Of a stretch of 64,000 nt of DNA, positions 31,704 through 32,120 are shown in pieces (the stretch's first letter is position 1; each line of letters begins with the position of its first letter). This stretch comes from Candidatus Thorarchaeota archaeon (GTDB lineage Archaea; Asgardarchaeota; Thorarchaeia; Thorarchaeales; Thorarchaeaceae): positions 1 through 64,000 of the forward strand of contig SHMX01000008.1 of assembly GCA_008080745.1 (NCBI GenBank). Reading direction: 5' to 3'. A program made the translations under genes and the position numbers. Under the pieces are notes generated by a model that did not search any database, had not been told where the DNA came from, and was given only the letters and a program-made list of their open reading frames with translations.

Positions 31704-31728
31704 TTGAAAATTTAAGAAAACTGAGTGC

Positions 31729-31833
31729 TCAGGTTGCTTCCAACGCGAGCACTTCACTGAAAGTGAGTTCACCACTCTTGCTAGAGTCCTGGTGTGTGGG
31801 AGTCGATTGCTTATCTTGAACGCTGGAGTTCAT
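31729..31833 (-). CDS. Microprotein C of a three-gene operon (acidic)
   Basis: This 34-residue protein begins MNSSVQDKQ and ends SEVLALEAT. It has five acidic and two basic residues, unlike its two basic upstream neighbours. Its ATG lies five bases after the stop of microprotein B. AGGAG sits 9 bases upstream, inside the last codons of B, and the stretch GATCTCAATG repeats the previous junction almost exactly. An ATG at 31842 that overlaps B's stop would add three residues but would abut the ribosome site. Function unknown; no family recognised. Confidence 0.6.
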   Translation of the reverse strand: MNSSVQDKQSTPTHQDSSKSGELTFSEVLALEAT

Positions 31834-31838
31834 TGAGA

Positions 31839-31922
31839 TCATCTCCTGAAGTAAGCGTGGGTGATAGCCTTGGTCGAGGGGGACTTGGTGTCCTTGATGA
31901 TCTTGGTCTTGGATACTGCCAT
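31839..31922 (-). CDS. Microprotein B of a three-gene operon (basic)
   Basis: This 27-residue, lysine-rich protein (about six net positive charges) begins MAVSKTKIIKDTK and ends STKAITHAYFRR. The ending matches microprotein A (STKALSYAYTYWR). All lysine codons are AAG and most others end in C (ACC, ATC, TCC), a bias seen in highly expressed genes and unlike most neighbours. GGAGG lies 8 bases before its ATG, inside A's last codons and stop. It is too small for any known enzyme fold; possible roles such as nucleic-acid or ribosome binding are guesses from charge alone. Confidence 0.65.
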   Translation of the reverse strand: MAVSKTKIIKDTKSPSTKAITHAYFRR

Positions 31923-31927
31923 TGAGA

Positions 31928-32032
31928 TTACCTCCAGTATGTGTAAGCATAGGACAGAGCCTTGGTGCTCTGAGTCTTACGGGTGTTGTTCTTCTTCTCG
32001 GATTCAGTTCGGGAGTTCTTTGCAAACGCCAT
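31928..32032 (-). CDS. Microprotein A of a three-gene operon (basic)
   Basis: This 34-residue, strongly basic protein begins MAFAKNSRTESEKK and ends STKALSYAYTYWR. It has eight Lys/Arg and two Glu. It is the first cistron and has no ribosome site. A TATA box about 31 bases upstream of the ATG implies a nearly leaderless transcript, a common archaeal arrangement for first genes. Codon choice is biased to AAG and C-ending codons. Homology with microprotein B is concentrated in the last 13 residues. No family recognised. Confidence 0.65.
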   Translation of the reverse strand: MAFAKNSRTESEKKNNTRKTQSTKALSYAYTYWR

Positions 32033-32062
32033 GATTGTTCACAACATATACTACTCCAAGTT

Positions 32063-32071
32063 AGTATATAA
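32063..32071 (-). promoter_or_regulatory. TATA box of the microprotein operon
   Basis: TTATATACT on the minus strand lies 31 bases before the microprotein A ATG, which would put transcription start about 10 bases ahead of the codon. A second weaker TATA-like stretch (GTATATG) lies closer to the ATG. Confidence 0.55.
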
Positions 32072-32101
32072 TGGAAAGCCACGATTATAGGACACACAAT
32101 G

Positions 32102-32120
32102 TAGTCACAAATTGTGACTA
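32102..32120. promoter_or_regulatory. Perfect palindrome upstream of the microprotein operon
   Basis: TAGTCACAA-A-TTGTGACTA is a 9+9 inverted repeat about 31 bases upstream of the TATA box. Its size and symmetry suit a dimeric transcription factor. The half-site TAGTCACAAAT recurs at 37123-37133, ahead of the first small GTPase gene. Confidence 0.5.

Follow-up and report, generated by a model that had tools for sequence, protein, structure and literature searches.

The window, by which we mean the whole stretch of 64,000 nucleotides that was analyzed, contains on its minus strand one transcription unit of ~400 bp (32120-31723). The unit comprises an operator, a TATA box, genes for three microproteins (A, B and C) and a terminator-like hairpin. 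Microproteins A (MAFAKNSRTESEKKNNTRKTQSTKALSYAYTYWR; 31928..32032, minus strand) and C (MNSSVQDKQSTPTHQDSSKSGELTFSEVLALEAT; 31729..31833, minus strand) each have 34 residues, and microprotein B (MAVSKTKIIKDTKSPSTKAITHAYFRR; 31839..31922, minus strand) has 27. An earlier reading of this DNA made from the letters alone (the sequence-only reading) had described three minus-strand frames of these sizes with five-base junctions, and its lengths, coordinates and spacing were exact. The A-B and B-C junctions are each the five bases TCTCA, and the ribosome-binding sequences of B (CTGGAGGTAA) and C (AGGAGATGA) are located inside the last codons of A and B, respectively; the junctions are nearly alike, as had been noted. 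The net charges of A (+6), B (+6) and C (-3) agree with the description of A and B as lysine-rich and of C as acidic, and would suit the proposal in that reading of basic binders with an acidic partner. The ending reported as common to A and B was found in the family-wide form ST.A(I/L)..AY..R. Note that the terminal R(R) coincides with the Shine-Dalgarno sequence of the gene that follows, and its conservation may therefore partly reflect this overlap. An AlphaFold2 model of A consisted of a single helix (residues 5-33), with a mean pLDDT of 66 that is too weak to rely on.

The codon usage of the three genes differed from that of the surrounding genes. All 12 lysine codons of A, B and C were AAG compared with 43% across the window's 36 long ORFs; GC3 was 0.68 in A, 0.81 in B and 0.56 in C compared with 0.27-0.41 in the same ORFs. 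The use of AAG for every lysine of B and the preference for C-ending codons, both pointed out in the sequence-only reading, are thus part of an extreme bias that probably resembles that of very highly expressed genes, which supports the earlier suggestion of high expression.

The A, B and C frames recurred across the genera of the family (Candidatus Thorarchaeota according to named records), where they encode proteins of 24-40 aa. The recurring patterns were MALATNxR...STxALxYAYxTxVR for A, MALAK...STxAITxAYFRR for B and ...LTxxEVLALEAT for C, in which the C-terminal (E/D)VLALEAT is conserved; C was absent from many A-B operons. A profile of B matched 45 of the 47 family genomes and none of 181 other Asgard genomes (E <= 0.01). 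In the genome of the window (G000) and a congener (G001), the dN/dS values, which were calculated by the Nei-Gojobori method on pooled pairs that are not independent, were as follows: 0.16 within G000, 0.27 within G001 and 0.41 between them for A; 0.00, 0.12 and 0.12 for B; and 0.28, 0.67 (few changes) and 0.27 for C. There were no amino-acid changes in B among the five copies of the window's genome. When the copies were aligned, the indels within A were six bases long, the sole odd-length indel fell after the A stop codon and before the start of B, and the stop codons varied among TAA, TAG and TGA, a pattern of coding selection. Codon-position bias, in-frame indels and cross-species conservation, the marks of genuine small ORFs, were therefore all found. 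These comparisons demonstrate that A, B and C are conserved protein-coding frames under purifying selection. The sequence-only reading had allowed that the frames might have arisen by chance if relatives lacked them or if substitutions had no codon-position bias; however, the protein-level conservation in relatives does not favour that explanation, and recurrence of the frames at four other places in the genome together with the selection on them is far beyond chance.

Upstream of A, we found the perfect palindrome that had been described, with nine bases on each side of a single central base (TAGTCACAA-T-TTGTGACTA; the operator, TAGTCACAATTTGTGACTA, is at 32102..32120, minus strand). The family consensus was GTCACA-N3-TGTGAC, in which the arms were nearly constant and the three central bases varied across the loci compared. 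The TATA box TTATATA (32065..32071, minus strand; offset +47 from the palindrome start) lies about 32 bases upstream of the first ATG, measured from its end, in agreement with the promoter that had been proposed. Two half-sites, GTGTC (offset 23) and GTGGC (offset 36), lie 13 bp apart (32078..32095, minus strand), the second of which is just upstream of the TATA box. The consensus occurred in 41 of the 47 family genomes with up to seven sites per genome, compared with about 10 sites in total for the reversed-pattern control in the 47 genomes. A TATA-like box was detected beside 121 of 134 unique palindromes, at offsets from the palindrome start of 33 (n=19), 46/47 (n=91), 59 (n=4) and a few others, and extra GTGAC-like half-sites started at 23, 36 and, in long promoters, 49. 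Because the offsets of the half-sites and of the TATA box step by 13, the promoter is built of 13-base modules, with the last beside the TATA box. The palindrome behaves as a predicted operator: the conserved arms, the enrichment over the control and the fixed promoter spacing all support the earlier proposal of a regulated gene set.

A scan of 84,980 prokaryote species genomes found the fixed-spacing promoter pattern in 85 stretches, and there was no match in viral contigs. The 85 stretches belonged to Thorarchaeota-titled records except for a 'Lokiarchaeota' bin, RBin_111, and one further archaeon. The pattern is specific to the Thorarchaeota form of the promoter and is therefore uninformative on the operator alone in other groups. 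'Candidatus Lokiarchaeota archaeon RBin_111' (WJMJ01 contigs, G001; loci L180, L188, L218, L220 and L230) carries the Thorarchaeota promoter and is placed in the family of the window, and its label therefore looks wrong. A further observation concerned L063, L072, L094, L095, L096, L164 and L174, in which repeated inverse half-sites (TGGTCAC...TGGTCA...GTGACC) are present downstream of the first A gene. These are apparently a second, inverted operator ladder within the operon.

The operator was not confined to A-B-C units. Of seven perfect operator sites in G000, five precede A-B-C units, one precedes a locus that encodes a peptide and an MFS protein (C4) and one precedes a bactofilin-like gene (C3). 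The bactofilin-like protein (~415 residues; TATA box at +33) matched PF04519 above the cut-off, with E values of 1e-10 and 1.5e-7. The same operator, again with the TATA box at +33, precedes the gene for a membrane protein of ~390 residues with repeated WLxFFA segments, and a nitroreductase-like gene was found behind it in one case. Thus, A-B-C and the bactofilin-like gene share both the operator and the promoter geometry, and the shared operator is the sole link between them. At a further conserved locus (locus II), the same operator is followed by genes for A-like peptides and, downstream of them, by an MFS transporter gene. In L011 (4944-5400; G000 C4:63.9 kb) and L043, the operator and the TATA box are followed by small frames that are quite different (MKPVIKK...SPRRENLYYEYRWGV and MNRRYQMNLGFELSENMIKVW...) and then by an MFS gene.

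The arrangement at locus II bears on whether A, B and C are secreted or membrane-active peptides for communication or antagonism, with the MFS protein serving for export or self-protection. The tandem arrangement of short, basic and sequence-diverse peptides would suit such a function, as would the order at this locus, where A-like peptides, behind the same operator, precede an MFS gene. We nevertheless consider this improbable, given that no hydrophobic signal sequence was visible in A, B or C by inspection, that most operons have no exporter nearby, and that B is unchanged among five copies whereas weapon peptides tend to diversify.

The operator was also present in other Asgard families, namely in all nine genomes of f24, 13 of 23 genomes of f17 and six of eight genomes of f9, and was found in none of the f2 genomes listed. 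It is therefore common to four Asgard families including that of the window. A bactofilin-like protein of the same kind was encoded behind the operator in f24 and f9, MFS proteins in f9 and, of a different type, in f17, and the same repeat-containing membrane protein in f17. Further, lysine-rich microproteins of 27-35 residues with net charges of +4 to +8 were found behind the operator in f24, often as tandem pairs, and in f17 (L341, L342, L347, L348 and L350 of f24; L335, L338 and L340 of f17). Their sequences differ from those of A, B and C. Since the operator precedes other genes in other families, its use is wider than A-B-C, and microproteins recur behind it.

We searched for the regulator among the neighbours of the operator and by matches in G000 and G001, and it was not found there. 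An HTH-like protein (c35) encoded beside some operators was rejected as it is single-copy and also occurs in Asgard families without the operator. In f9, a gene at L353 (from 2330) encodes an ArsR-type HTH fused to a GyrI-like ligand-binding domain and is divergent from an operator followed by an MFS gene. This protein is a candidate regulator in f9; however, as the regulator of the A-B-C units it was set aside, because G000 and G001 contained no full match to it (1e-10). The divergent neighbour c13 (PF14196), whose distance from the operator is 25-92 bp at seven loci representing three contexts (L063, L072, L092, L094, L095, L056 and L065), is an ATC-hydrolase family enzyme and was likewise dismissed.

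The downstream end of the unit is formed by a terminator-like hairpin (31724..31753, minus strand) that overlaps the end and the stop codon of C, with a predicted stem followed by a T-rich stretch. The hairpin has up to 15 pairs (GAAGTGCTC...GAGCACTTC) and then T-runs. When 40 distinct sequences were compared, 83% of hairpin cells were paired, in contrast to 26-44% when the partner strand was slid. In the same set, 24 hairpin cells had double changes compared with 8.4 in shuffles, a number that none of 500 shuffles reached, and the covariation score was 0.208 compared with 0.144. Transcription termination is the simplest role that can be proposed for the hairpin. In the genus g5, LEAT is kept while the hairpin shifts to GGAGGC...GCCTCC, suggesting that the end of the C peptide is conserved independently as well. 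We rejected a leader peptide or attenuator as an explanation of A-B-C because the unit possesses its own covarying terminator-like hairpin and the next gene varies from copy to copy; the locus II variant is the only form that precedes an MFS gene.

The window's genome (3.16 Mb in 19 contigs; 98% complete, 4.8% contamination) held five copies of the unit that were 89-97% identical. The four copies outside the window, located at C1:660 kb, C2:312 kb, C2:573 kb and C12:4.3 kb, were 91-94% identical to the window copy. Note that G000 and its relatives are assemblies largely from metagenomes and that these copy numbers are minimum values, as assemblies are broken by repeats. Alignment of the five copies showed that homology begins at the palindrome and ends just past ...GAGCACTC, directly beyond the hairpin, and that the flanks are unrelated; the whole dispersed unit in the window (31720..32120, minus strand) thus has sharp edges. 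A sixth A-B-C operon of G000 at C2:49.7 kb (L270, C2:49.5-50.0 kb) has diverged and carries another palindrome, GGTTTG-N5-CAAACC, ahead of its TATA box. This palindrome or a near match to it also precedes the TATA box of diverged A-B(-C) operons at L277, L280, L281, L285 and L289. Near matches also lie ahead of the peptide-MFS locus on C4, and two of them form a pair at C5:55.5 kb.

Four loci were occupied by the unit in both G000 and G001: one after a PolX-like gene, one beside the RNase P RNA gene, one after c55 and the C1 locus. In a tree, the copies at these loci clustered by genome and not by locus. Identity was 89-97% within G000 and 88-98% within G001 compared with 81-84% between the genomes, and the alignable flanks of the loci were 66-82% identical. 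Paralogues within a genome are thus closer to each other than to the same-locus orthologues of the other species, and the copies evidently undergo concerted evolution, via gene conversion or an equivalent process. The sequence-only reading had regarded A and B as recently duplicated. This part did not hold, because both forms occur throughout the family; what happened recently is that the whole operon was copied and homogenised in each individual genome. Neither the multiple copies nor the empty site, the covarying 3' hairpin and the wider regulon had been noticed in that reading. The maintenance of several near-identical copies per genome is most simply explained by a requirement for a high dose.

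The window copy is located between a rubredoxin gene and an FtsX-type gene. These two genes are adjacent in the sister species G001, in which the unit is missing and the site is empty. At the conserved Tsr3-rnpB-Cbf5 locus, both G000 and G001 carry the unit, and the 28 other rnpB loci that were examined lack it; contig ends cut some of these loci short. The insertion at this locus is not clean, because another small gene is also present there in G000. Comparison of the loci demonstrates that the occupied sites differ between lineages. Gain is the simpler reading, although the unit may instead have been lost at the rubredoxin site.

Such a distribution could also result from a non-autonomous transposable element derived from IS200/IS605, with hairpin ends and no target duplication, that carries the microproteins as passengers. 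The unit is discrete and dispersed and is bounded by a palindrome on one side and a hairpin on the other; one site is empty, no target duplication was seen at the copies, the copy at the RNase P RNA locus is genus-specific, and several copies run up to contig ends, in the manner of repeats. However, the same loci are occupied across species and genera, and the frames are under purifying selection. Further, the palindrome is not specific to an element, as it precedes bactofilin-like, membrane-protein and MFS genes with a fixed TATA offset, the T-runs after the 3' hairpin are terminator-like, and the diverged A-B-C operons use another operator. A mobile element is thus already disfavoured, and we regard it as a poor prospect.

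Some copies lie close to stable RNA genes. ARAGORN run without introns found no tRNA near the copies, but when introns were allowed and Rfam was used, tRNA-Leu(CAA), tRNA-Ser and RNase P RNA genes were found convergent to some of them. At L009 (4769-5102), L039 (4696-5029), L085, L086, L088, L093 and others, the copy ends just before the 3' end of the convergent gene, which encodes RNase P RNA, an intron-containing tRNA-Leu(CAA) or tRNA-Ser(GCT). Integration targeted to tRNA genes was rejected as a rule because the RNA-adjacent copies are mostly fixed orthologous loci.

An operon that combines small basic and acidic proteins under one regulated promoter might encode something akin to a toxin-antitoxin system, in which the basic proteins would be the toxins and the acidic one the antitoxin. 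This is very improbable: the pairing is not strict, because C is missing from many A-B operons, the proteins are unrelated to known families in Pfam and NCBIfam, and near-identical operons kept in concert are not typical of such systems.

A stronger alternative is that A and B are basic peptides associated with nucleic acids or ribosomes that are made in bulk to tune chromatin or ribosomes, with C acting as an acidic chaperone or anti-binder and the shared operator reporting only the global state of growth or stress. The net charge of +6 and the codon bias, which is like that of very highly expressed genes, are consistent with this, and homogenised multiple copies have been reported for archaeal histone (PMC6053082). 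Against it, A, B and C had no similarity to nucleic-acid-binding families in Pfam, NCBIfam or PHROGs, and a PDB profile search with A returned noise only, its sole match being the N-terminus of ribosomal protein uS11 (E 0.64). Further, the other genes behind the operator encode scaffold-like and membrane proteins. We therefore hold a role at nucleic acids or ribosomes to be possible but rather doubtful.

Since the products of the other genes behind the operator are membrane and scaffold-like proteins, a role at the cell surface or at a scaffold is the most likely single reading. The explanation that we prefer, namely that the unit is a selected, complete transcription unit for three microproteins with a role linked to the envelope or a scaffold, is evenly poised when taken as a whole. 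Activity of the microproteins at the envelope or at a bactofilin-like scaffold is our best guess, to which we give a weight of nearly one half. A dimeric DNA-binding protein would control all of the genes behind the operator. Once this regulator permitted transcription, coupled translation would yield all three microproteins at the same time and in abundance. A and B, as short basic helices, may then associate with an acidic partner, either at or close to the membrane or on the bactofilin-like scaffold, and C, which is acidic and has its own conserved C-terminal segment, may tune or buffer A and B. We suggest more tentatively that several Asgard lineages share an old operator-controlled envelope response that unites a bactofilin-like scaffold, membrane proteins and abundant multi-copy basic microproteins, in which the microproteins would turn over between lineages while the operator and the large genes stay. 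If this is true, the response would represent a previously unknown system of Asgard cell structure.

A, B and C had no match in Pfam, NCBIfam or PHROGs, consistent with the earlier remark that no described family fits, and two microproteins of the other families had no match in NCBIfam or PHROGs. In open-access papers, we found no description of the A, B and C proteins or of the operator. We know of no kind of system into which a microprotein operon that evolves in concert and carries an operator and a terminator of its own would fit. As real, multi-copy genes that share an operator with scaffold-like and transporter genes, A, B and C seem to form a new class of small proteins under regulation, whose novelty lies in the protein set and the regulon rather than in the biochemistry. 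Eukaryotes have no closer known relatives than the Asgard archaea, in which most lineage-specific genes lack an explanation. The genes described here are too small for annotation pipelines, yet they are multi-copy, homogenised, strongly codon-biased and tied by an operator to bactofilin-like and membrane-protein genes. They suggest that a dose-controlled component of the cell may consist of proteins of 27-40 residues, and they offer a concrete regulon, whose operator sequence is given exactly and which is testable in Asgard cultures or enrichments.

Of the known systems, bactofilins (PF04519), which are polymer-forming cytoskeletal proteins, are connected to A-B-C by the bactofilin-like gene behind the same operator, both in this genome and elsewhere among the Asgard families. 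A, B and C are themselves not bactofilins, as they have 24-40 aa and no beta-helix pattern. Non-autonomous elements of the IS200/IS605 type are palindrome-ended. The A-B-C unit resembles them in being discrete, in having palindromic structures at its ends and in that target duplication was not seen, but differs in its orthologous positions, in the selection on its frames and in its palindrome, which is a promoter element of unrelated genes too. One survey found 26 prokaryotic genes under long-lasting concerted evolution, including tuf, mtrA and archaeal histone (PMC6053082). As in those genes, dispersed copies of A-B-C are more alike within a genome than orthologues are between genomes; in contrast to them, the homogenised unit is a ~400-bp transcription unit for three microproteins with an operator and a terminator, and its occupied sites differ between lineages. 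Very small archaeal proteins that are basic or regulated are also known from the brz-brb operon of Halobacterium, which encodes the small basic protein Brb (PMC3184054), and from the zinc-finger micro-proteins of Haloferax (PMC10716476). Unlike these, A, B and C have no zinc-binding cysteines and no relative outside the family according to the profile search, and they are encoded in multiple copies, with A and B as tandem paralogues accompanied by the acidic C.
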